Translations under genes and position numbers: made by a program | Part shown: piece by piece, positions 20,858 to 59,078 of the stretch | Layout of the letters: each line of letters opens with the position of its first letter | How positions within the stretch are numbered: position 1 is the stretch's first letter | Assembly (NCBI GenBank): GCA_902765855.1 | Contig: CACXBF010000002.1 | Coordinates: forward strand, 152,225 to 216,224 | Direction of reading: 5' to 3' | DNA: 64,000 nucleotides | DNA from: an uncultured Ruminococcus sp. | Lineage (GTDB): Bacteria; Bacillota; Clostridia; Oscillospirales; Acutalibacteraceae | Notes under the pieces: model-generated | The model's input: only the letters and a program-made list of their open reading frames with translations | Database searches by the model: none | What the model was told of the DNA's origin: nothing

Positions 20858-20881
20858 ATTTAATATAAAAACTGAATAAAT

Positions 20882-20966
20882 TATTTACGGGGGTATCGGA
20901 TAAGCGTCCGATTGAGAATTAAACCCTTTGAACCTGTCGGTTGATACCGTGGTAGGGAAGTAAATT
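20882..20966 (+). promoter_or_regulatory. TPP riboswitch (THI element)
   Basis: The basal stem ATTTAC/GTAAAT closes the element. Core segments present: GGGGGTATC near 20890, a hairpin ATCGG-ataagcgt-CCGAT, TGAGA (20933-20937), the THI-box ACCCTTTGAACCTG (20942-20955) and the closing GATACC with GTAGGGAAG. It binds thiamin pyrophosphate. A terminator follows at 21040, so control is by transcription termination. Confidence 0.93.
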
Positions 20967-21039
20967 TGTAGAAATTGAGATTTTTACTATCCTTAAATAT
21001 AAGCGGGATTATACCGCTTATTTTAGTTCTCAAGTTATT

Positions 21040-28509: not shown

Positions 28510-28815
28510 AAAGTTAATTGAATAAGTAAACCGTTGAACAAGAAGAGTAGAGTTTATCGAGCGTATTAAGAGAGCTGATGTTTGGTGCGAATCAGTTATG
28601 CAGATTTACTTGAATGGGCTTGCAAGGGCAGCAGGAAACCGAATTATTTCGGAAGTAATGGCTGACGGGAACTCTGTCCGTTATCAGTAGAGTGCGTATG
28701 AAGTACGCAAAATGAGTGGGTTTTTTTTATAAATAACCAATTTGGGTGGTACCGCAGAAGTTTCAAAGCTTTTGTCCCAAGGATTAAGTTCCTTGTGACG
28801 AAAGCTTTTTTTGAT
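28510..28815 (+). promoter_or_regulatory. T-box leader with tryptophan specifier
   Basis: Stem I carries the AGTA bulge (28546-28549), the AGAGAG and GGTG apical motifs (~28570-28587), and the specifier loop GAA-TGG-G, so TGG (28615-28617) reads as Trp. It is flanked by helices CAAG/CTTG below and GAGT/ACTT, ATC/GAT, GCGTA/TATGC above. The T-box GGGTGGTACCGC (28744-28755) would pair with uncharged tRNA-Trp. A terminator with AAAGCTTT repeated on both arms (28765-28810) ends in T's. Uncharged tRNA-Trp should turn the operon on. Confidence 0.93.
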
Positions 28816-37814: not shown

Positions 37815-37840
37815 ATGAACTGTAAGAATTTTTAAATTCC

Positions 37841-38005
37841 GGGATAGAGGTGCGTTAATTCGTGTAGCAAGGAGGAGAGTTCCGAAATCTGAGATACCTT
37901 GCGAATAGAATTATCGCCGAAGCGTAGGGTTATGGTAAAACCTTTCGCTGGCCGTGTGGAACATCTCCATATGGCTGTCATCATACTTATGATGGAGAGC
38001 TATTC
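37841..38005 (+). promoter_or_regulatory. Lysine riboswitch (L box)
   Basis: The closing helix pairs GATAG (37843) with CTATT (38000). L-box segments in order: GATAGAGGTGCG, GTAGCAAGGAGGAGAG, CGCCGAAGCG (~37916), CGCTGG, GGCTGTCAT and GATGGAGAGCTATTC (37991-38005). It precedes a terminator and asd-dapA, so lysine should shut the operon off by termination. Confidence 0.9.
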
Positions 38006-38044
38006 TTTATATAATATAGAGGCAGCTTAATAATATCAGAAGTA

Positions 38045-47122: not shown

Positions 47123-47151
47123 TTGACAACAAAATTCCGTTGTGATAAAAT
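47123..47151 (+). promoter_or_regulatory. Promoter upstream of EetA-like gene (distal)
   Basis: TTGACA (47123-47128), 17-nt spacer, TAAAAT (47146-47151), ~150 nt before the start codon. Confidence 0.6.
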
Positions 47152-47230
47152 AATCGGCGGACGGAATATATTACCATTGTGGCGAAATATATTGACCATA
47201 GGGGTAAATTATGTATTTCTGAAATATAAC

Positions 47231-47259
47231 TTTACTATTTAGGGAGAAATCCCTATATT
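47231..47259 (+). promoter_or_regulatory. Second promoter candidate before EetA-like gene
   Basis: TTTACT (47231-47236), 17-nt spacer, TATATT (47254-47259). The spacer and -10 include an inverted repeat TAGGGA-GAAA-TCCCTA followed by TATTTTTT, so the same bases could instead be a terminator of the distal transcript. Confidence 0.4.
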
Positions 47260-47271
47260 TTTTAAAGAATA

Positions 47272-47287
47272 GTTAATCAAAACTAAC
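47272..47287. promoter_or_regulatory. Shared palindromic operator, copy 1
   Basis: GTTAATCAAAACTAAC matches the perfect site at 51214 at 12 of 16 positions. Confidence 0.5.
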
Positions 47288-47298
47288 TAAAGTAAGAG

Positions 47299-47694
47299 GT
47301 GATAAGCATAAAAAGAAATATTATTTGTGTCATAATTTTTGTGCTGATACTAATAACTTCAACCGTTGCAGCACTTGCAATGAATAACAATGCAAAAAAT
47401 CAAGATGAAAAAATAGCTCGCATTTATCAGGATAAAAAACTTATCTATACAATAGATTTAAATTCTGTTAAGGAAACATATAGATTGACCATAGATGGTA
47501 AGGATAAATCTGAAAATATAGTAGAAGTACGAAATGGCAGTATAGGAATTATAAACGCAAGCTGTCCCGACCATATCTGTATAGACACAGGATTTATAGA
47601 CAATTCATCTGTACCTGTTGTTTGTTTGCCGAATAAAATTATCATAGAAATTTCGGATAATACAGATAATTCCATAGATGCAGTTGCGAATTAG
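47299..47694 (+). CDS. NusG-domain-II extracytoplasmic protein, EetA-like
   Basis: 131 residues: one N-terminal membrane anchor (~8-28), then a NusG II-type beta domain outside the cell with ASCPDHICIDTGFI (~90-103) and PVVCLPNKIIIEI (~109-121). The three Cys are conserved in this family. EetA of the Listeria extracellular electron-transfer locus has this architecture and is paired with EetB as here. The only canonical start, GTG 47299, lies inside the AGAGGTGA ribosome-like site; an ATA at 47308 has better spacing, so the start is uncertain. Confidence 0.75.
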   Translation: MISIKRNIICVIIFVLILITSTVAALAMNNNAKNQDEKIARIYQDKKLIYTIDLNSVKETYRLTIDGKDKSENIVEVRNGSIGIINASCPDHICIDTGFIDNSSVPVVCLPNKIIIEISDNTDNSIDAVAN

Positions 47695-47704
47695 GTGATG
47701 TGAA

Positions 47705-48274
47705 TTGAGAAAAAATAATAGCTTAAATATAAGAAAAATAGCGATGCTTTCAATGTTTGTTACAATATCATTGACAATATTCGTGCTTGAAAGTTTAATG
47801 CCGCCGGTAGTTAATATTCCCGGAATAAAGCCGGGCTTTGCAAATATAGTAACGCTGTTTTTGCTTGTAAATACTAATAAACGCTCTGCATTTACAGTTT
47901 TAATTGTAAGGGTAATTTTGGCTTCAATATTCGCCGGACAGATAATGTCTTTATTTTATAGCCTTTCGGGCGGTATACTTAGTTTACTTGCGATGAGTAT
48001 AGTTCTATACATAACAAAGAAAAAGACAGTGTGGTTTGCGAGTGTCGTAGGGGCAATTTTTCATAATATAGGACAAATTTTAGCCGCAGTTGTAGTTTTA
48101 GGCTCGTGGACGGTTATTGGGTATTTGCCTGTACTGTTGATTGCAGGCTGTATAACAGGCCTGATTACAGGTTTAATCACTGAATTTCTTGATAGGAGTC
48201 TTGCTAAGGGAACTTTTCTTAATAGACTTAATAAAATACTTTGTGTTAAAAAACAAGAAGTTGATATAAATTAA
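47705..48274 (+). CDS. Gx transporter family membrane protein, EetB-like
   Basis: 189 residues with about five membrane helices. It opens with IRKIAMLSMFVTISLTIFVLE (two parts, ~9-28) and has MPPVVNIPGIKPGFANIVTL (~32-51), the usual signature of the family once named heptaprenyl diphosphate synthase component I and now grouped with ECF-type S-component-like proteins. EetB in electron-transfer loci belongs here. TTG start with AGGTGATG upstream; 10 nt after the EetA-like gene, so co-transcribed. Confidence 0.8.
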   Translation: MRKNNSLNIRKIAMLSMFVTISLTIFVLESLMPPVVNIPGIKPGFANIVTLFLLVNTNKRSAFTVLIVRVILASIFAGQIMSLFYSLSGGILSLLAMSIVLYITKKKTVWFASVVGAIFHNIGQILAAVVVLGSWTVIGYLPVLLIAGCITGLITGLITEFLDRSLAKGTFLNRLNKILCVKKQEVDIN

Positions 48275-48279
48275 AAGTC

Positions 48280-48330
48280 TTGCTCAAGACGCATAATTGC
48301 TCGACAAGTTTCGTTCTAGCCTTTTCAAAG
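48280..48330. repeat. Short remnant of the mosaic repeat, block 7
   Basis: CTCAAGACGCATAATTGCTC and the following TTTCGTTCTAGCCTTTTCAAAG are degraded pieces of the module with TCAAGACGCGGAATCGCTCG and the GCCTTTTCAAAGG hairpin. Confidence 0.6.
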
Positions 48331-48340
48331 CACAGGAGGT

Positions 48341-48369
48341 AGAAAAACATTCCAATGGAATGTTTTTCT
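48341..48369. terminator. Bidirectional hairpin terminator after EetB-like gene
   Basis: AGAAAAACATTCC (48341-48353) and GGAATGTTTTTCT (48357-48369) are exact complements around a 3-nt loop. Confidence 0.8.
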
Positions 48370-48437
48370 GTAGGGAACTCTTGTAGGGGGCTAAAAGGTA
48401 AATGTCGGCTAAAACTTTAAATTTAATAGTTTTTAAA

Positions 48438-48453
48438 GTTAGTTAATACTAAT
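48438..48453. promoter_or_regulatory. Shared palindromic operator, copy 2
   Basis: GTTAGTTAATACTAAT, with exact TTAGT/ACTAA arms, differs from the site at 51214 only in the two central bases. I see no clear promoter boxes near it. Confidence 0.6.
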
Positions 48454-48549
48454 TCAAAAGGTGGGAATTTATTTAATGCTTATAGGGAAGATTTTGTCGG
48501 GATTTTTGTAGCATAAATTTCGGCAAAAATAAAAAATGGAGGGATAATA

Positions 48550-50067
48550 ATGCTGCTTATAATTTCACTTGTGCTTGCAGTAGCTTTTGTATTTTTATGT
48601 GGAAAAGCTCTCAAAAAGCACCCAAATTTATTTTACATCGGAGCAGGAATAATAACTGCTGTATTGGCACTCATTCCGTTTGACGGCGTACCCGATTTTG
48701 TCAATAATTACATTCTTGCTTTATTCAGGAGAGGTTCTCTTGCAACAGCAATTTTCATCATTGTTATGTATACAGGAGCGTTAAAAAATGGTTCTGCAAT
48801 AATGAAAAAGCTGATTGTCATTCGCGGAGAACTTTCGATTATGGCTTCAATAATGATACTTTGCCATAATATTTTCTTTGGGAAAACCTATTTTGTAAGA
48901 CTTTTCACATCAGCTTCAACAATGCCTGTAACACAGCTTCTTGCCGCTATTGCATCATTGCTAATGCTTGTGATTATGATACCACTTGCAATAATGTCAT
49001 TCCCAAAAGTAAGAAAGAAAATGAAACCAAAGCTTTGGAAAAAACTTCAGCGTTTTGCATATGCTTTTTATGCTTTGATTTATATTCATATCTTCCTTTT
49101 GACATATTCAAGTGCACAGGCTCGTCGAGGAGATTATGCACTTAGCCTTATTCTTTATACAATAGTTTTTGGTGTATACCTTGTAATGCGTGTCAGAAAA
49201 TATCTTCTTAAAAAGAACTCAAATATCAAACTTGCTCTTAATGCAGGTTCAGGCGTTTGTGCAGCAGGAATTGTCGGAGCGGTTTGCCTTTTTGTATTCT
49301 TAGGCAATGGAAATACCGCAACACCTGCAAGAACACCGGTCAGGACTTTTGCGTATTCTGCAGAAAGTTCCGCTGCTACTGCTGATAATTCCAATTCGGA
49401 AAGCCAGCTTCCTGTTGAAACCTCAGAAGTAAGCCAGACATCAGAAACAACCTCAACCGAAAACAAAGAAGAATCTAAATCAACAACTTCTGAAAGCTCA
49501 AAGACTTCATCAAAAGTAGAAAGTAAGTCAACAAAGAGAGAAACATCAAAGAGCAATTCTCAAAGCAGTCAAGTTGCAACAAAGAGCAGTAACACTTCTA
49601 ATAACAATAACACACAAAACAGTAAACCGTCTACTTCAAATAACAACAACAGCTCATCAAGTAAAAATAATACAAGTTCAAAGCCATCAACTTCTAAGCC
49701 AAGCCAATCTACAAATAAGCCGTCAAATAGTGGTAATACTGTTTCAAAGCCTGAAAAGTCAGCACAAGAAACATCAAAAGCACCTGTTGTACAAAATAAA
49801 TATAAGGACGGAAAGTTCAGCGGTTCAGCCTATGGTTATGATGGGAATATCTATGTAACAATCACAATTAAGGATGATAAAATCACAAATATAGAGGCAA
49901 CATCAGATGAAAGCGACCCTTGGTATTTTGAGAGCTGTGTTCAGAATGTAACATCACAAATTATCTCAAACCAAAGTACGAATGTTGACGCAACAAGCGG
50001 TGCTACATACTCCTCAGAGGGTATTATGGCAGCGGTTGAACAGGCTTTGAACAGTGCGAAGAATTGA
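48550..50067 (+). CDS. Heme/FMN membrane protein: ferric-reductase-like TM domain fused to FMN-binding domain
   Basis: 505 residues. About eight membrane helices (~1-252), with His106 (ILCHNIFF) and His180 (LIYIHIFLL) in helices as possible heme ligands, as in ferric-reductase-like TM proteins. Residues ~260-415 are a Ser/Thr/Asn/Lys low-complexity linker likely outside the membrane. The C-terminal FMN-binding domain (~418-504) ends with NVDATSGATYSS (~478-489), the site that ApbE modifies with FMN on Thr486. The ApbE gene follows directly. It would pass electrons from the membrane to a tethered flavin. Confidence 0.8.
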   Translation: MLLIISLVLAVAFVFLCGKALKKHPNLFYIGAGIITAVLALIPFDGVPDFVNNYILALFRRGSLATAIFIIVMYTGALKNGSAIMKKLIVIRGELSIMASIMILCHNIFFGKTYFVRLFTSASTMPVTQLLAAIASLLMLVIMIPLAIMSFPKVRKKMKPKLWKKLQRFAYAFYALIYIHIFLLTYSSAQARRGDYALSLILYTIVFGVYLVMRVRKYLLKKNSNIKLALNAGSGVCAAGIVGAVCLFVFLGNGNTATPARTPVRTFAYSAESSAATADNSNSESQLPVETSEVSQTSETTSTENKEESKSTTSESSKTSSKVESKSTKRETSKSNSQSSQVATKSSNTSNNNNTQNSKPSTSNNNNSSSSKNNTSSKPSTSKPSQSTNKPSNSGNTVSKPEKSAQETSKAPVVQNKYKDGKFSGSAYGYDGNIYVTITIKDDKITNIEATSDESDPWYFESCVQNVTSQIISNQSTNVDATSGATYSSEGIMAAVEQALNSAKN

Positions 50068-50068
50068 T

Positions 50069-51139
50069 ATGAAAAAACAAATTTTAGCTTTAATAATGGT
50101 AACTCTTTCTTTGAGCCTTACAGCTTGTAATAATTCAAACGGAGAAACCTCATCAGTTTATGAAATTTCTCTTGGCAGTGATTATGATGATAGCAACGAG
50201 AAAAGCCTGTCATTTTTCGCAATGGACACATATATGAATTTTAAGGCTTATGGAGAAAACGCAAAGGCTGCTGTAAACGAGGCGTCAACTATTGTAGAAG
50301 ATTTGGAGAATAAGCTTTCTGTAACAAACCCTGAAAGCGAAATTTCAAAGATAAATTCTTCAGCAAATAATGCGATAAAGGTTTCAGAAGATACGCTTAC
50401 ACTTATATCGACCGCTCTTGATGTCAATAAAAAAAGCGATGGTGCGTTTGATATTACAATCTATCCGATAGTTAAGCTTTGGGGTTTTACAACAGGGAAG
50501 TATAAAGTTCCGAGTAGGGAAGAGCTTTCAAAAAATCTTGAATATGTTGATAGTTCAAAGATTACGCTTGACGAAAAAGCGAGTACGGTAACCGTTCCAA
50601 AGAATATCGAAATAGACCTTGGCGGAATTGCAAAGGGCTATGCCGGTAAGAAAGCCGCAGATAAAATTCGTTCTATGGGAATAGAGAGTGCCTTGCTTAA
50701 TCTTGGCGGAAATATTCAAACAATAGGTTCAAAACCCGATGGCAGTGCGTGGGGAGTTTCTATATGTAATCCGGAGGATTCCTCAAAACAGCTTTGTCGT
50801 ATTGAAGTAGTAGATAAGGCAGTTGTAACATCTGGTGGCTATCAGAGATATTTTGAGGAAAACGGTAAGAGTTATCATCATATAATAGACCCTAAGAGCG
50901 GATACCCGGCAGAAAATGGCTTGGTTTCTGTAACGATTGTCGATGAAGATGGTATGCTTTGCGACGCACTTTCAACAACGCTTTTTGTCTTAGGTAAGGA
51001 CAAGGCTCTTGAATATTGCGAAAAATACGGTATAGAAGCTATCCTTATAACCGATGATAAGAAAATTTATGTCACAGATGAATTAAAAGAAAGCTTTTCT
51101 ATAATTTACCAATCATCAGGCTATTCTCTTGCAAAATAA
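50069..51139 (+). CDS. apbE: FAD:protein FMN transferase (lipoprotein)
   Basis: 356 residues. Lipoprotein signal MKKQILALIMVTLSLSLTAC with Cys20 as lipid anchor. ApbE-domain motifs: MDTYMNFKAYG (~52-62), GAFDITIYPIVKLWGF (~129-144), IDLGGIAKGYAGKKAAD (~188-204), LLNLGGNIQTIG (~215-226) and HHIIDPKSGYPAENGL (~275-290), with the Mg-binding Asp/Thr near CDALSTTLFVLG. Transfers FMN to Thr in FMN-binding proteins outside the membrane. ATG 50069 starts 2 nt after the stop of the gene it serves. Confidence 0.93.
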   Translation: MKKQILALIMVTLSLSLTACNNSNGETSSVYEISLGSDYDDSNEKSLSFFAMDTYMNFKAYGENAKAAVNEASTIVEDLENKLSVTNPESEISKINSSANNAIKVSEDTLTLISTALDVNKKSDGAFDITIYPIVKLWGFTTGKYKVPSREELSKNLEYVDSSKITLDEKASTVTVPKNIEIDLGGIAKGYAGKKAADKIRSMGIESALLNLGGNIQTIGSKPDGSAWGVSICNPEDSSKQLCRIEVVDKAVVTSGGYQRYFEENGKSYHHIIDPKSGYPAENGLVSVTIVDEDGMLCDALSTTLFVLGKDKALEYCEKYGIEAILITDDKKIYVTDELKESFSIIYQSSGYSLAK

Positions 51140-51177
51140 TTTACTCATAAAAATTAGAAATTTTTTATTTTGCTTTA

Positions 51178-51206
51178 TTGACTTTTGGAAAAAATAGGTA
51201 TAAAAT
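51178..51206 (+). promoter_or_regulatory. Promoter of Tp47-like gene
   Basis: TTGACT (51178-51183), 17-nt spacer, TAAAAT (51201-51206). Two operator-like palindromes follow immediately. Confidence 0.75.
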
Positions 51207-51213
51207 AAAGGTA

Positions 51214-51229
51214 GTTAGTTATAACTAAT
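51214..51229. promoter_or_regulatory. Shared palindromic operator, copy 3
   Basis: GTTAGTTATAACTAAT contains the perfect palindrome TTAGTTATAACTAA and covers the expected start of transcription. Confidence 0.65.
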
Positions 51230-51234
51230 CAAAG

Positions 51235-51250
51235 GTTAGTAAAAGCTAAC
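51235..51250. promoter_or_regulatory. Second palindrome in Tp47-like leader
   Basis: GTTAG-taaaag-CTAAC, 21 bp downstream (two helical turns) from copy 3. Confidence 0.5.
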
Positions 51251-51274
51251 TAAAATATTTTCGGGAGGTTCGTT

Positions 51275-52978
51275 ATGAACAGCAAAAAAACAGTTTCAAC
51301 TGTTTTGGCGGCAGCACTGGTTCTTAGTGTGACATCAAGTGCTGCATTTGCGTCAAACAGCAGTAAAAATTCCGCAGACTATGTTTACGGTACAATGAAG
51401 ATTTCGTATCACGATTTCTATTTAGGAGAAAATGTTGATACAACAAAAGGTGTTACAAGCACTGATTATGTTGATGCAGTAAGCTCTGCTACTATGAATA
51501 AGTATAAAAATCAAAGCCTCAATGCAGGTACATATACTTCAGAAAATGCAGATAACACAATGGGATATATCAACGGTGTTATTTTCCCCGTAAAAGTTTC
51601 AGCAGAAGATTATGCAGAACTTAAATCAGCAAGCAATTTTGACGAGCTTGGCTTTACAGAACTTACAGAAGCTCCGGCAGTATATAAGGAACTTACAGTA
51701 GATAATGGTGTTCTTTCCTTTGGTGAAGCAGAAGGAAAAACAGAAACTGTAGATGCAAGCTATACATTCTCAACAAACTCAAGATATGGTGACTATCAGA
51801 TTTCCTTTAGTGATGTAAACAATATTTTCAATGATAATGTTGTTTATGGCGTAGTTCTTGAAACAGCAGAAGGCGATGATTACGGTCTTTATTCACAGGA
51901 GAATATCTGGAGAAATACCGAGCTTGCATGGTCAACAGGTTTTACAACAGAAGCACATGGTTGCCCACTTCGTTCAGAACCTTATGAAGCAATTATGGGT
52001 GAAACTCTTGATAATGTACAGTATATCACAGCTAACGGCATCTATAATTTCACAATGAATCAATATGTTGCAATCAAGCACAATGGTAACATTAATGTTA
52101 ATGATGCTTATATTACAGACGGTTCAACAAGTTGCCTTATAAGCGATATTCCAAACGATTTTGAACCACAGGTTACAGTCGAGGGACTTGATTGCACATA
52201 TAGCAACGATAAACTCAATTTCACAAATGCAATCCCTAATAAGTATACAGCAGTTTTGTCTGATGCAAAGGGCAAATATGCAAGTGTTTCAACAGATTTC
52301 ACACTCAAGACAACCGCTCAGGCATCACTCAAAGACGGTCAACTTCTTCTTGATAATAAGACAGACGGTGTTGCAGATTATATCTCAGCATTCACATCTA
52401 TTGCTATAACTGACCCTAATGGCGATGTTATTAAGTATATCGAAAAAGAAAGAGGCAAGCCTACTTACACAGCGGATATATTTGATGCAAATGGTGTTAT
52501 AGATGTTGATGCACAGTATACAGCTGCTACAACAACCGGTAAAGGTCCAAGTGCTGTAACAACTTACGAATACGGCCCTGTATTCGGTATAGACGGAGAA
52601 TATCAGATTGTTATTCAGGCGAATGGTTATGATACTGCTACACTTTCTTATACAGTAAACAGAGAACCATCTGCTCCTGAATCATCAGAGGAATCTTCAA
52701 ACAATGAGCCTTCAAACGAAGATTCAAATGTTGTTTCTGACGAGTCATCAAATGAGCCATCAGAGCCAAGTGATGTTGAAAGCTCAGAAGAGTCATCAAA
52801 GAATGAGCCTTCCGAAGTAAATAGCAATGCAGATGATACAAATAGCACAAATACATCTAACGGCAAAGACGCTGGAACAGTTGCAACAGGAGCAAGCGAA
52901 ACAGCTGCGGGAATTGCACTTGTCTTTATCGTAGCTGCATTGGTCGCATCAATTCTTTACAGATTTAATAAATCTTAA
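51275..52978 (+). CDS. Surface-anchored Tp47-domain-like protein in the flavin locus
   Basis: 567 residues. Signal peptide ~1-27 (ending AAFA). Residues ~35-120 contain YGTMKISYHDFYLGE and VDAVSSATMNKYKN, resembling the penicillin-binding Tp47 lipoprotein domain of Treponema and relatives in Clostridia; two or three beta domains follow (~120-455). A Ser/Glu/Asn-rich stalk (~460-535) and C-terminal membrane helix (~541-562) with short basic tail anchor it to the surface. Sortase use is unclear. Regulated by the same operator as the FMN protein. Function is not known; penicillin binding is not implied. Confidence 0.65.
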   Translation: MNSKKTVSTVLAAALVLSVTSSAAFASNSSKNSADYVYGTMKISYHDFYLGENVDTTKGVTSTDYVDAVSSATMNKYKNQSLNAGTYTSENADNTMGYINGVIFPVKVSAEDYAELKSASNFDELGFTELTEAPAVYKELTVDNGVLSFGEAEGKTETVDASYTFSTNSRYGDYQISFSDVNNIFNDNVVYGVVLETAEGDDYGLYSQENIWRNTELAWSTGFTTEAHGCPLRSEPYEAIMGETLDNVQYITANGIYNFTMNQYVAIKHNGNINVNDAYITDGSTSCLISDIPNDFEPQVTVEGLDCTYSNDKLNFTNAIPNKYTAVLSDAKGKYASVSTDFTLKTTAQASLKDGQLLLDNKTDGVADYISAFTSIAITDPNGDVIKYIEKERGKPTYTADIFDANGVIDVDAQYTAATTTGKGPSAVTTYEYGPVFGIDGEYQIVIQANGYDTATLSYTVNREPSAPESSEESSNNEPSNEDSNVVSDESSNEPSEPSDVESSEESSKNEPSEVNSNADDTNSTNTSNGKDAGTVATGASETAAGIALVFIVAALVASILYRFNKS

Positions 52979-53490: not shown

Positions 53491-55899
53491 ATGGAAGAAA
53501 TTTTGCGTAATAAAGATATATTTAAAATAATCCCGTTTGATTATGAACAAAATATTTTGTTTTTTCCGATAAGGCATCATAGCCCCGCTTGTTCTTATCA
53601 CTTAATAAAAACAATAGAAAAATATAAGCCTGATTGTATTCTTGTTGAAGGTCCGCAAAACGCAAACCGACTGATTCCGATATTAACTGATGAAGATACG
53701 AATATGCCGGTTGCATTTTATTATTTCTATAAGGACAAGGGGAAGTTGATTGATGAAAATGCTGATAGTTATAAATGTTACTATCCATTTTTGAATACGT
53801 CACCTGAATATAACGCACTGTTAGAAGCGAAAAGGCTAAATATCACAGGTAGTTTTATAGATTTGCCATATGGCGAAATTTTGATAAACACAAAAGCTGA
53901 TACAGGAATACGCAAAGAAAGTGAAATTCCAAACTATAATGACGATTATTATTTATCAGAAAATAAAGTTTTTGATGCTATATGCGAAAAAACTCATATG
54001 CGTAGCTTTGAGGAATTTTGGGAGAAATTCTTTGAGATAGACGCATTGTTTATGGATACAGAAGATTTCGTTGCGAGAATGATGTCATATTGCTATCTTA
54101 CCAGACAGAATACCCCTAAAAATATTATGGAAAACGATGGATGTTTGGTTCGTGAAAGCTTTATGGCTAAAAATATCCTTGAAGCTGCAAAAATTCATAA
54201 AAAAGTTTTGGTAGTAACAGGCGGATTTCATAGCTATGGACTTTATAGTCTTATCAATTCCGAAAAGGAAATCAAGTCGCCAAGACTGCACCATTTTGAC
54301 GAAAAACAGCAGAATGTATACGCTATGGCGTATACACTTGAGGCGGCAGACGCTCTGAACGGTTATGCGTCAGGTATGCAAAATCCCGGATTTTATGAAA
54401 GTGTATGGAAGAAAATTAAAACCAATTCGGATTCTATAGAAACTGTCTATGAAAATACAGTTTTTGATATTTTGCTCAAAACCGCAAAACAAGCAAGCAA
54501 AGAAAAATTGCTAATCACAATGTCGGATATACTCTCCGCCGTAACAATGTATAACGGACTTCGCCTTATAAGAGATAAAAAATCCGTTGGACTTTATGAG
54601 CTATACGATTCTGTACAAAGCTGTTTTATAAAAGGTGAAGTTAATTCTGCAAGTGACTTGCCATTAAGAATACTAAGCAAAATTGCTACTGGTTCGGGAA
54701 TAGGCAAGCTTTGTCAGACAGAAGATAAAATTCCGCTTATAGCTGATTTTGAGGAACAATGCAAAAAATATCGCCTGAAAGTGAATATTGCTATTGAGCA
54801 GAAAGTAGAGCTTGATATTTTTGCAAAGAAAAATCATATGGAGATAAGTCGATTTTTCTATCGTATGAATTTCTTAAAGACAGGTTTTGCAAAGCGTTTG
54901 AAGGGTTCAGATATCGTAAATAATGTTGATAGAAGTCGTGTAAGAGAGATATGGACATATGCAAGAAATATAGCTACAGATACAGCCTTAATTGATTCAA
55001 GTGCTTATGGTGCGACTATTGAGGAAGCTTGTAGAATTATTGCTGCAAGGCAGTTGAGAAGTGAACAACGATGCAGTGAATCAGCAAAGCTATATGTAGA
55101 ATGTTTTCTTATGGGGATAGATATTTCAGCGGAATTTGCTGAACATATGAATGATATTATCATAAATGATGGCGACTTTTTCTCAATAGGAAAGGCTATT
55201 TATTACTTTAATATGCTTATTTCTCTAAAAAAACTATATGGCATTGATAATTCCGAAAGTGAATATTTCCTTGAAAAGTGCTTTAGTCGAATTGTAATTA
55301 TGCTCCCCTCGATAATAAATATAAATTCCGATAGGGCAGAGGAGTGTATTAAGATTTGCAGAATATTATACAATCTTTCTTGTGAGGGAATATTGTCAGA
55401 CAGATTTCCTGAACTAATTCAAGCGTTCAAGGATATGATTGAAAAGGATAATCCGGAACCGGCTTTATATGGTGCTGTTCTTGGCTTACTTTATGGATAT
55501 GATGCGAATTATAAGTCAGAAATCAGTAATGCACTTTTTGGTTATCTTACAGGAAGTGATGAGCTTAAAAAGCAAGGAGCGATATTTCTGCGAGGAGCTT
55601 TTTCAACAGCAAGAGATATAGTTCTTGTTGGCTATGAATTTATAAAGATGATAGATAGCCTTATAAATTCACTTTTAATAAATGACTTTATGGAGGTTAT
55701 GCCGGAATTAAGACTTGCGTTCAGTAAATTTACCCCCTCAGAAACAGATAAAATTGCAGAAAAAGCAGCGTCACTTTATGAAAAATCAAGTTCAGATTTG
55801 AAAAAAGACTTTGTAATCTATGATGATATTTATGCACTTGGAGTTGAACTTGATAAGCAAATTTGTGAAGATATTTCTACGGAGGAAAAATATGTCTGA
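53491..55899 (+). CDS. DUF5682 family protein
   Basis: 802-residue soluble protein. The N-terminal domain (~18-260) has FFPIRHHSPACSYHL (~25-39), CILVEGPQNANRL (~50-62) and VVTGGFHSYGL (~241-251), the DUF5682 pattern that recalls TraB/ChaN-type folds. The remainder is helical. DUF5682 genes occur with VWA, SWIM and MoxR genes in predicted NTP-dependent protein complexes of unknown role. Its end overlaps the VWA gene by 8 bp. The ribosome site before the ATG is weak (GAGG at long spacing). Confidence 0.82.
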   Translation: MEEILRNKDIFKIIPFDYEQNILFFPIRHHSPACSYHLIKTIEKYKPDCILVEGPQNANRLIPILTDEDTNMPVAFYYFYKDKGKLIDENADSYKCYYPFLNTSPEYNALLEAKRLNITGSFIDLPYGEILINTKADTGIRKESEIPNYNDDYYLSENKVFDAICEKTHMRSFEEFWEKFFEIDALFMDTEDFVARMMSYCYLTRQNTPKNIMENDGCLVRESFMAKNILEAAKIHKKVLVVTGGFHSYGLYSLINSEKEIKSPRLHHFDEKQQNVYAMAYTLEAADALNGYASGMQNPGFYESVWKKIKTNSDSIETVYENTVFDILLKTAKQASKEKLLITMSDILSAVTMYNGLRLIRDKKSVGLYELYDSVQSCFIKGEVNSASDLPLRILSKIATGSGIGKLCQTEDKIPLIADFEEQCKKYRLKVNIAIEQKVELDIFAKKNHMEISRFFYRMNFLKTGFAKRLKGSDIVNNVDRSRVREIWTYARNIATDTALIDSSAYGATIEEACRIIAARQLRSEQRCSESAKLYVECFLMGIDISAEFAEHMNDIIINDGDFFSIGKAIYYFNMLISLKKLYGIDNSESEYFLEKCFSRIVIMLPSIININSDRAEECIKICRILYNLSCEGILSDRFPELIQAFKDMIEKDNPEPALYGAVLGLLYGYDANYKSEISNALFGYLTGSDELKKQGAIFLRGAFSTARDIVLVGYEFIKMIDSLINSLLINDFMEVMPELRLAFSKFTPSETDKIAEKAASLYEKSSSDLKKDFVIYDDIYALGVELDKQICEDISTEEKYV

Positions 55900-57025
55900 A
55901 AATTACGATAAAAATCAAAGTTTAAATAGATGGCGTCTTATACTCGGCAAAAATTCCGAAAACCATATAGATTTTTCAGGCTCATATAGCGATGATATTT
56001 CCTACGAGGATATGGAAAATACACTTGATTTTCTCTATTCAATGGAGTTTGGCGATGAGCTTATGCGTATTGGTGGTAATGGTCCGTCAAGACTTTATAC
56101 AGCGGATTGGATAGCAAAGGTAAGAAAGATTTTTCCGAAAAAGACAGTAGAAATTTTGGAAAAGCAAGCAATAGAGCATTTCAATCTTACAGAAATGCTT
56201 ACTGATAAAGAAGTTCTCAAGAAAATGGAACCTAATACAGATTTATTAAAGGTTATCTTGCAATTTAAACATATGATGAAAAGTGATGTCATAGACGAAG
56301 CAAAACGAATTATAAAAAAGGTTGTAGACGAGATAAGCGAGAAACTTAATCAGGATATAAGAAAGTCCTTACTCGGAAAACTTAACCGCAATATGCCTTC
56401 AAATGTCAAGTCTATGAGAAATTTTGATTTTAAGCGTACTATCCAAAGAAATCTTAAAAACTATGATACAAAAAATAATCAACTTGTTCTAAAGAATGTA
56501 TATTTCAATAGCCGTACAAAACGCTTTAATAAATGGAGCATAATAATTGCAGTTGATGAGAGCGGTTCTATGCTTGATTCTGTTATTTATAGTGCGGTTA
56601 TGGCTGGAATTTTCGCTAAACTACCAATGATAGATACAAAACTGATAATTTTCGATACAGAAATAGTTGATTTAAGCGGATATGTAGAAGACCCTGTTGA
56701 AGTCCTTATGGGTATGCAGCTTGGCGGTGGCACAGATATAGCAAAGGCATTAACTTACTGTCAGAGCCTTTGCAGTAATCCTCATAGAACGATTTTTGTT
56801 ACGGTTACGGATTTATATGAGGGCGGTAGCGTAAATACCCTGTTACATACTGCCGCAAATATTATCGGCGGAGGCAGTAAGATGATATTTCTTACCGCCC
56901 TCGATAAGCAGGCAAACCCCGATTACGACAGAAATATCGGACAGAAATTAGCTAATTTAGGGGCATTTGTCGGAGCCATGACTCCTGAACAGCTTGGCGA
57001 TTATATCGGAAAAATGATTAGCTGA
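55892..57025 (+). CDS. VWA (CoxE-like) domain protein
   Basis: 377 residues from ATG 55892 with GGAGG at good spacing; a longer frame into the upstream gene is rejected. The C-terminal von Willebrand A domain (~205-377) has an intact MIDAS: AVDESGSMLDS (~214-224), Thr in GGGTDIAKAL (~279-288) and Asp in VTVTDLYEGG (~303-312). The N-terminal half is helical. VWA proteins of this class normally work with a MoxR AAA+ ATPase as metal-dependent chaperone partners; that ATPase is not in this operon. Confidence 0.88.
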   Translation: MSENYDKNQSLNRWRLILGKNSENHIDFSGSYSDDISYEDMENTLDFLYSMEFGDELMRIGGNGPSRLYTADWIAKVRKIFPKKTVEILEKQAIEHFNLTEMLTDKEVLKKMEPNTDLLKVILQFKHMMKSDVIDEAKRIIKKVVDEISEKLNQDIRKSLLGKLNRNMPSNVKSMRNFDFKRTIQRNLKNYDTKNNQLVLKNVYFNSRTKRFNKWSIIIAVDESGSMLDSVIYSAVMAGIFAKLPMIDTKLIIFDTEIVDLSGYVEDPVEVLMGMQLGGGTDIAKALTYCQSLCSNPHRTIFVTVTDLYEGGSVNTLLHTAANIIGGGSKMIFLTALDKQANPDYDRNIGQKLANLGAFVGAMTPEQLGDYIGKMIS

Positions 57026-57038
57026 GAGAGGGTGAAGT

Positions 57039-59078
57039 ATGTCAGAATTAAATAATATAATCAGTACAACCGATGATGATTACCTTATCGGTCTTACAAA
57101 TAAAGGTACTCTTAAAAGAGCCTATAAGGACTTGGAAGAGGCTGAAATTTCCGCAGAATATAGCGACTCGAAAATAGAAGTAAGTGTTGCTGACCAGAAA
57201 TGCAGTATTGTATCTCCGCTTGGAGAAAGCAAATGTACTTGCCCGTCAAGAAGTATTTGCAGACACATTATAACCGCTATTCTTTGGCTGAAAAATAATC
57301 TTTCAGAAAGTAGTACTGAAGAAGTAAAAAAAACTCCCGAACCTGAAGTATCTACAATAAACAAAGAACTTATAGCAGAACTTTCTGAATATCCGCTCAA
57401 GCTGATTAAAAGTGCTATGAAAAAGCAGTATTTAGCTAAATTTCTTAAAAATGCCCAAAATGGAAAGTTTCCACAGCTTGAAGAAGCAAGTATGATTACA
57501 GGTGTTCTTAATGATGAGGGAATTATGGTTAAACTGATTTCTCCACTCAAATATTCCGCTTGTAGTTGTCATAGTAAGGAATTATGTAAGCATAAAGCGG
57601 CTGTAATTCTTGCGTGGCAGATTAAGAATAAAATTGTTTCGCTTGATGAGCTTGCCGACTCAAAGGACGAAAACGCTTTTGATGTCCCTGCTGTTCATAA
57701 GACCGCAAAGGAAGTCGAAAAGTTTCTTTATGATATATTTTCAAATGGACTTGTGCGAGTTTCTGACGATATTCATGAACACGCCGAGGCTATGGCTGTT
57801 ATGTGTCATAGTGCAAAAATGGCTGATTCTGAGCGTCTTATGCGTGAAATAGGCAACAGGTTAAAAGGCTATGTAATCCGTTCTCCTGAATTTGATGTTC
57901 AGATACTTTTCAGCCAGCTTATGGAGGCTTTAATTTCTATAAGAAAAATTCTTAACAGCAATTCAGAAAGCACACTTGCCGAATATATGGGTGAGTTCAA
58001 GCAAGCGTATTCAGATTCAGAAACGCTTGAGCTTATTCCGCTTGCGGTACGAAATATTTCATCAGTGTCAGGCTATGCGGGCGAAATCTATTATTTCTTG
58101 AATAAGAATACCGATAGCGAAAATAAATATCTTACATATTCAAGCGTCAGACCAACTTTTTATGAAAGTAAAAGAAATAGGGTTCAATATTCTGCACCGT
58201 GGGGACTTACGGGAAATCTCAAACAGGCTATGTCTTGTGAATTAAGATTGAAGAATCCGAAGCTTTCGGGTAATAAAATTTCCTCCTCATCAGATACCCA
58301 CGCCGAAACTCTCAGCAAGGTAAATTTAAATCAAAAGCTTGTTATAGATAGTGTTTATCGTAATTTCCGAAAAATGATAGATGAAGTTCTTGTCGGCAAA
58401 ATGACCTCAAAAGAAAATTTGGTTATGGTGACATTTGAGAAATGTATAGACTCCTTTACAGACGAAATAAGCCAAACTCACAGCATTATAGTAGAAGATT
58501 ATCTCGGACAAAGGCTTACTATAAAAGCGAGATATAAGAATGCAGGCAAGGAATTTTTTGAAATTCTGGTTAAAGTCGGCGAAATTATGAAAAATGCTTC
58601 CGAAAATCAGTATACAATTCTTGCTAATGCGTATATCAGCAATGGTGAATGTATTCTTTATCCAATAGCTATTTATGATGAAATTCATTTTTCTAAGATA
58701 AATGATAGTTCAGAGAGTCGAAATATCAATGCAAAGTCCAATTTTGGGAACTATGAATTTTTCTCTCGACTTTTTGGTGAGATTTTACAGTCTTTATGTG
58801 ATATAATTCAAAGTGGAATCAATTCCTACGATTTATACAACTGCATATATGATTTTTCTAAGGAGTGTGAGCGTTCAGGCTTGAACACGCTCTGCAGTAA
58901 AATTCTTGAGCTTTATAATATGCTAAAGAATAAAAATCATACATACAATACGGATAATACAAAGATTATCTTAAAGCTTGCAGAAATATATAATTATATT
59001 TCTGTCGGAATAGAAAAAACAGCTTTCAAACAAGCTATTTATAATTTAACAAAGGAGAATGAAGATGAATTTACTTGA
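57039..59078 (+). CDS. Protein with two SWIM zinc fingers
   Basis: 679 residues. Two CxC-x5-CxH SWIM motifs: CTCPSRSICRH (~67-77) and CSCHSKELCKH (~177-187). The rest is mainly helical with no recognised domain. SWIM fingers bind nucleic acid or protein. The double finger in an N-terminal module is the form seen in DUF5682/VWA cassettes. 13 nt after the VWA gene; its end overlaps the DUF4132 gene by 14 bp. Confidence 0.85.
   Translation: MSELNNIISTTDDDYLIGLTNKGTLKRAYKDLEEAEISAEYSDSKIEVSVADQKCSIVSPLGESKCTCPSRSICRHIITAILWLKNNLSESSTEEVKKTPEPEVSTINKELIAELSEYPLKLIKSAMKKQYLAKFLKNAQNGKFPQLEEASMITGVLNDEGIMVKLISPLKYSACSCHSKELCKHKAAVILAWQIKNKIVSLDELADSKDENAFDVPAVHKTAKEVEKFLYDIFSNGLVRVSDDIHEHAEAMAVMCHSAKMADSERLMREIGNRLKGYVIRSPEFDVQILFSQLMEALISIRKILNSNSESTLAEYMGEFKQAYSDSETLELIPLAVRNISSVSGYAGEIYYFLNKNTDSENKYLTYSSVRPTFYESKRNRVQYSAPWGLTGNLKQAMSCELRLKNPKLSGNKISSSSDTHAETLSKVNLNQKLVIDSVYRNFRKMIDEVLVGKMTSKENLVMVTFEKCIDSFTDEISQTHSIIVEDYLGQRLTIKARYKNAGKEFFEILVKVGEIMKNASENQYTILANAYISNGECILYPIAIYDEIHFSKINDSSESRNINAKSNFGNYEFFSRLFGEILQSLCDIIQSGINSYDLYNCIYDFSKECERSGLNTLCSKILELYNMLKNKNHTYNTDNTKIILKLAEIYNYISVGIEKTAFKQAIYNLTKENEDEFT

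Follow-up and report, generated by a model that had tools for sequence, protein, structure and literature searches.

Gene content of the locus and architecture of the fusion protein

We analyzed a 64,000-nucleotide stretch of contig CACXBF010000002.1 from an uncultured Ruminococcus sp. (the window) and focus here on five genes of its plus strand, for which an earlier reading of the letters alone (the original prediction) had proposed a flavin-based extracytosolic electron-transfer locus. All five gene products, namely an EetA-like protein, an EetB-like protein, a fusion of a membrane part to an FMN_bind domain, a lipoprotein ApbE, and a Tp47-like surface protein, were found where that prediction had placed them. 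The EetA-like gene (NusG_II, PF07009; 47299–47694, Pfam E value 8.6e-30) is followed by the EetB-like gene (PF07456; 47705–48274, E 3.4e-38), whose family is that of the Listeria S subunit of an energy-coupling factor (ECF) transporter exporting flavin adenine dinucleotide (FAD) (PMC9973259). The fusion gene occupies 48550–50067, and the gene for the ApbE flavin transferase occupies 50069–51139 (E 2.9e-91). The listed open reading frame of the latter begins at 50054, but reading of the sequence makes a start at 50069 likelier, which gives a lipoprotein signal. The Tp47-like gene (51275–52978) comes last. Ahead of EetA, positions 47123–47255 hold a near-perfect extended promoter-like site and then a terminator-like hairpin, perhaps serving attenuation, with no Rfam family there. 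No Rfam family, including the flavin mononucleotide (FMN) riboswitch, was found at the locus, and a single match to a small nucleolar RNA (E 0.06, far under the cut-off) was taken as chance. The host genome (2.39 Mb, 99.99% complete) is close to that of Pseudoruminococcus massiliensis, with membrane parts that are 96% identical.

Named species genomes were scanned, yielding 66 related loci, the most distant of which (L074, E 3e-5) is probably a chance match. Together with the window these make 67 sequence sets with 68 membrane-part matches, and in 55 matches (the window and 54 loci) the membrane part is fused to FMN_bind; among the remaining 13 are fragments truncated where contigs end.

In the window, the fusion consists of a STEAP/MsrQ-like membrane part (residues 1–252), a disordered linker, and an FMN_bind domain (residues 429–501). 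The domain search for PF01794 and PF04205 that the original prediction had proposed gave a divided outcome: FMN_bind was significant (E 7.1e-15), whereas the match to PF01794 (Ferric_reduct; E 2e-5) reached 25.1 bits and thus fell below the Pfam cut-off of 28. The AlphaFold model predicts about eight membrane helices joined by a disordered linker to an FMN_bind fold, with a mean predicted local distance difference test score of 75 and good confidence outside the linker. By Foldseek, the FMN domain matches the CbFMN4 (TM score 0.83 by target, E 2.8e-3) and SaFMN3 domains. The membrane part matches STEAP2, SpNOX, and STEAP1 at E values of 0.27–0.58 with Foldseek probabilities of 0.97–0.99, and NOX5 with a probability of 0.69, the E values with NOX5 included spanning 0.27–0.84. 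As modeled, the membrane part resembles the STEAP/NOX/MsrQ ferric-reductase fold.

Two histidines, H106 (codon 48865–48867, plus strand) and H180 (codon 49087–49089, plus strand), are invariant in 55/55 fusions and are the only histidines kept throughout, forming one pair of putative heme ligands. The positive-inside rule, applied by reading, puts both ends of the fusion outward and this pair in the outer half of the membrane, a location that matches the need of a single outer heme. STEAP proteins carry a single heme. In its modeled membrane fold, the fusion resembles the STEAP ferric reductases, with which it shares a single conserved histidine pair; unlike them, it has no cytosolic NADPH/FAD domain and instead adds an extracellular FMN domain. 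Within that domain lies the motif DATSGAT (residues 480–486; 49987–50007, plus strand), which follows the ApbE flavinylation rule D-x-x-[S/T]-G-A-[S/T] (PMC12052999). A clear D-x-x-[S/T]-G-A-T motif is present in 49 of the 55 fusions and absent by that expression in six. The linker, judged by match boundaries, measures 193 residues in the window fusion and 39–210 residues overall (median 133, n = 55).

The surface protein and its relation to Tp47

The Tp47-like protein comprises a signal peptide, a Tp47-fold N domain, an Ig-like domain, a region (about 52310–52657) corresponding by alignment to the HID region of relatives, a low-complexity stem, and a C-terminal transmembrane anchor. It has no Pfam match of its own at E 0.1 and, unlike Treponema pallidum Tp47, falls short of the Pfam models PBP-Tp47_a and Tp47_c. 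Its predicted fold nevertheless has T. pallidum Tp47 (1o75) as the best match in the PDB (E 5.8e-9, TM score 0.47 by target, root mean square deviation 8.9 over the whole chain), so the label "Tp47-like" is right at the level of the fold. Sequence searches of the PDB with this protein or with family profiles did not find Tp47, which was reached only by fold comparison and through the bridging relative described below.

For sequence comparison, 37 of 48 Tp47-like matches were aligned, 11 (one of them a fragment) being left out to limit size. A PF07550 (Shr-like_HID) match at an E value of no more than 1 is found in 34/37 of those aligned (best 4.2e-11). The window protein carries the motif DAVSSAT (residues 67–73; 51473–51493, plus strand), of which D67, A68, S71, and T73 are kept in 37/37 proteins, and DA[VI][ST]SAT is present in 35/37. 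We regard the motif as a possible new ApbE site.

Several observations tie this protein family to the fusion. A Tp47-like gene occurs in 47/67 sets and stands directly upstream of the membrane or fusion gene in 45; the window and its sister L009 are the exceptions, with the Tp47-like gene after apbE. Of 394 genomes in an evenly drawn sample of the order, 19 have the Tp47-like domain, 13 have the membrane part, and seven have both (0.63 expected, p 2.6e-7, related genomes not being independent). Of the 12 sampled genomes that have the Tp47-like domain only, 10 encode FMN_bind either within that polypeptide or elsewhere in the stretch that was fetched (exceptions L167 and L170). Two of the loci with a Tp47-like domain and no membrane part (L164 and L169) encode a Fer4_5 membrane protein, which we take to be of the NapH type.

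Linker length also varies with the anchor of the surface partner. Where the Tp47-like partner is a lipoprotein (four loci by reading, L055 and L063–L065, the last three being close relatives), the linker has 55–66 residues, versus 95–210 where a wall or membrane tail is present at the C terminus of the partner (38 loci, some with degenerate sortase motifs; one-sided p 6e-4). Twelve fusions with no Tp47-like gene in their stretch were left out of this comparison, as was L024, whose Tp47-like gene is incomplete. That linker length tracks the anchor of the partner fits an FMN domain that has to reach this partner. In L024, the Tp47-like part is itself fused to two FMN_bind domains. Three loci have no Tp47-like gene, and there the fusion or membrane gene is accompanied by genes for S-layer-anchored proteins that carry between two and five FMN_bind domains (L034:11560–14223, L043:11562–14231, and L066:3620–8200); these proteins apparently replace the surface partner.

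The bridge to authentic Tp47 is a 1569-residue S-layer protein of L160, which combines two window-type domains, HID, PBP-Tp47_a (3e-51), Tp47_c (6e-68), and FMN_bind (7e-6), and which is encoded next to EetA, EetB, ApbE, and a protein with five FMN domains. The Tp47 portion of the 1569-residue protein has a match to 1o75 at 3e-16, and the sequence FDAVSRAT is common to both. In a profile comparison, this motif aligned to the DAVSSAT of the window family (hhalign one-pair E 1.9e-4, with a probability of only 47%). The window protein and T. pallidum Tp47 have in common a fold and a DAVS(S/R)AT motif. Tp47 is TP0574 (PMC11100446, PMC12417408), and the corrected table in PMC5951579 lists TPASS_0572 as an FMN-binding domain (Ferric reductase), the rows being shifted in the uncorrected version (PMC4403809). 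According to these papers, therefore, the "FMN-binding (Ferric reductase)" gene TP0572 of T. pallidum is two locus tags from Tp47. Published work describes the latter as penicillin-binding and weakly active as a beta-lactamase (PMC6351036) and counts it among the proteins assigned a function via structure (PMC5956850). In the literature searched, most subscription papers being outside its reach, nothing joins Tp47 with flavinylation or with TP0572; the accessible portion of PMC6399405 contains the words "flavinylation" and "Tp47" in unrelated places. We offer only tentatively, as a doubtful possibility, that Tp47-type proteins, T. pallidum Tp47 included, form a new class of surface redox carriers that would bear ApbE-given FMN at a DxV[ST]xAT loop and, in iron acquisition, serve a STEAP-like membrane reductase (TP0572 in Treponema) as its final partners.

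DtxR/IdeR-type boxes and the genomic context

DtxR/IdeR-type boxes were defined as exact TTAGN6CTAA palindromes, and for counts by gene class the 250 bases upstream of each gene were examined. Three of the seven exact boxes of the whole window (1.9 expected) lie at the locus: TTAGTTAATACTAA at 48439–48452, upstream of the fusion gene, and TTAGTTATAACTAA (51215–51228) and TTAGTAAAAGCTAA (51236–51249), both before the Tp47-like gene. A weaker box with one mismatch, TTAATCAAAACTAA, precedes EetA at 47273–47286. The box at 51215 begins 8 bp behind the −10 element of a sigma-70-like promoter, TTGACT-17-TAAAAT (51178–51206, plus strand), which agrees at 10/12 positions and is identified by pattern only, 30 such sites being present in the region versus 22.3 in shuffles. 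The 14-bp core bound by IdeR is TTAGGNNNNCCTAA (PMC8464063); the boxes of the locus have the TTAG and CTAA arms at equal spacing and differ in the fifth arm base, and a box of the relative L054 fits exactly.

Across the relatives, boxes lie upstream of 20/43 Tp47-like genes versus 32/530 other genes (p 7.5e-12), and several of those 32 are feoB, DUF3793, or ATP-binding cassette exporter genes. The counts are 5/65 for membrane or fusion genes, 1/28 for ApbE, 0/21 for EetA, and 0/22 for EetB. Overall, a box is present in 32/112 upstream stretches versus 1.2 expected from shuffles. Six genomes of the order-wide sample have the membrane part only, and in 5/5 of those fetched a box stands just behind a promoter-like sequence (promoters by reading). 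In the host genome, boxes are also found at feoA-feoB, a ZIP transporter, DUF2325, DUF3793, and nifS/nifU, and one gene encodes both Pfam DtxR domains. In the literature searched, with the reach given above, iron control of such loci and a DAVSSAT-type motif are unreported.

The neighbors in the 67 sets, counted as clusters of which one example each was named by Pfam, include FeoB (23), DUF3793 (23), flavodoxin (17), DUF2325 (16), and a heavy-metal P-type ATPase (15). Genes for DUF3793 and DUF2325 are repeatedly found close to feoB and to boxes of the DtxR type (L104, L108, and loci such as L010, L012, L027, and L054), and both may be unrecognized members of the iron regulon.

Elsewhere in the window, genes for DUF5682, VWA_CoxE, and SWIM zinc-finger proteins form a run at 53491–59078 that brings to mind MoxR/VWA/SWIM systems. 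An Rfam scan of the window gave a T-box leader (28525–28782), a lysine riboswitch (37837–38010), and a borderline thiamine pyrophosphate riboswitch (20879–20976), and no transfer RNA was found across the window.

A proposed surface reductase and its competing explanations

On balance, we lean toward the view that the locus encodes a surface reductase regulated by iron starvation, a reading favored by the DtxR-type boxes and by the iron-uptake context (feoAB, flavodoxin, and DUF2325). In this mechanism, EetB would export FAD with the ECF machinery of the cell, and the lipoprotein ApbE would place FMN on T486 of the fusion and perhaps on T73 of the Tp47-like protein. Electrons would reach the membrane part from the cytosol, donated by flavodoxin, flavin, or reduced nicotinamide nucleotides (NAD(P)H) and not by menaquinol, and would pass to the FMN domain by way of a single heme in the outer leaflet with H106 and H180 as its ligands. 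This domain, on its long flexible linker, would swing to the Tp47-like protein at the cell surface, where ferric or heme iron would be reduced, and the resulting Fe(II) would enter through FeoAB. A repressor of the DtxR family would turn the genes off when iron is plentiful.

A number of results weigh against this proposal. The membrane assignment depends on a subthreshold PF01794 match and on STEAP/NOX matches with E values above 0.2. Ferrochelatase was found in 0/25 genomes (the host and 24 genomes carrying the membrane part, L029 left out), which leaves uptake as the source of any heme, unless the protein does without it. Of the fusion proposed in the original prediction, the membrane part, which fits the ferric-reductase fold, and the DATSGAT motif are supported. 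DAVSSAT departs from the ApbE rule by having S in place of G, and a change of this G to A is reported to leave about half of flavinylation (PMC12052999). A genome-wide excess of boxes in the host, which we also considered, is unsupported (29 matches versus 39 for a reversed-pattern control), and host boxes also precede unrelated genes, one of them (L107) being a perfect palindrome. No exact box was found for 23/43 Tp47-like genes, and the loci of Ruminococcus flavefaciens isolates are without any. Finally, there is no iron transporter beside the locus within the window, feoAB being on another contig.

Among the alternatives, heme acquisition fares best, and we still consider it unlikely. Here the HID-like region of the surface protein would bind heme or hemoproteins, and electrons from the fusion would reduce or release the heme, which would also supply the cofactor of the fusion. 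The PF07550 matches of the relatives and the missing ferrochelatase speak for this account, whereas the window protein itself has no PF07550 match at E 1. We take DUF1533 to be the old name of this Shr-like_HID domain. Of the papers that a literature listing gives for DUF1533, two concern plant polysaccharide degradation and not heme.

Next comes respiratory extracellular electron transfer (EET), an improbable account in which the same chain would shed surplus electrons on outside acceptors for energy or redox balance. The EetA/EetB/ApbE content favors it, and the S-layer partners with several FMN_bind domains resemble long-range carriers. The Listeria EET system (Ndh2, EetA, EetB, FmnA, FmnB, and PplA) and the locus share EetA, EetB, and the lipoprotein ApbE/FmnB, and to this extent, with one membrane/FMN protein added, the Listeria-like locus of the original prediction holds. 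Its respiratory route is not supported: the UbiA family (PF01040) is absent from the host genome, in which all 14 controls were positive, and is missing in 15/24 carriers of the membrane part. Without UbiA the host would make no demethylmenaquinone by the known route, and its absence in the host and these carriers argues against quinol as the donor. The DtxR-type boxes and iron-gene context likewise disfavor respiration. No PplA-like protein with two FMN_bind domains is encoded anywhere in the genome, whose sole FMN_bind protein is the fusion, and the predicted absence of PplA is thereby borne out genome-wide; no Ndh2 was found among the genes of the locus, the search covering the locus only. 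With neither PplA nor UbiA, a plain Listeria EET system was rejected; a ferric-reductase-like fusion is present instead. An MsrPQ-like role in the redox repair of surface proteins is very improbable: the kinship of the membrane part with MsrQ-like proteins (PF01794) is countered by the iron-gene context, and no gene of the locus is MsrP-like.

Among the closest described counterparts of the locus are MsrQ-like flavinylation systems, which join ApbE and FMN_bind with a membrane protein of the PF01794 type (PMC8238504, PMC11334425), the family to which the membrane part of the fusion has its subthreshold match. An MsrQ/FMN_bind single chain has been modeled, assimilatory iron reduction has been suggested for some such systems (PMC8238504, PMC11334425 Fig. 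5B), and EetB has been reported beside them (PMC9973259). The composition that the original prediction called novel is not unique, with such chains and neighbors published (PMC11334425, PMC9973259) and all five gene types together in 17/67 of our sets, the window included and many loci being cut by contig ends. MsrQ-like systems are reported to be widely conserved among Actinobacteria and uncommon in other groups (PMC8238504, PMC11334425), whereas the present locus is in Clostridia and differs further in having EetA and EetB, boxes of the DtxR type, and a surface partner that is Tp47-like. The accessible portions of PMC8238504 make no mention of Tp47 or Treponema, nor do those of PMC11334425 of Tp47, Treponema, FeoB, or DtxR.

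We conclude that the system is real and conserved and that it is most likely a surface reductase under iron control, with an unexpected and testable link to Tp47. If this is true, it would give gut Clostridia without the customary genes for quinone and heme a molecular route to reduce iron at their surface, and it would provide a new functional hypothesis for Tp47, a major syphilis antigen, that is testable in harmless relatives.

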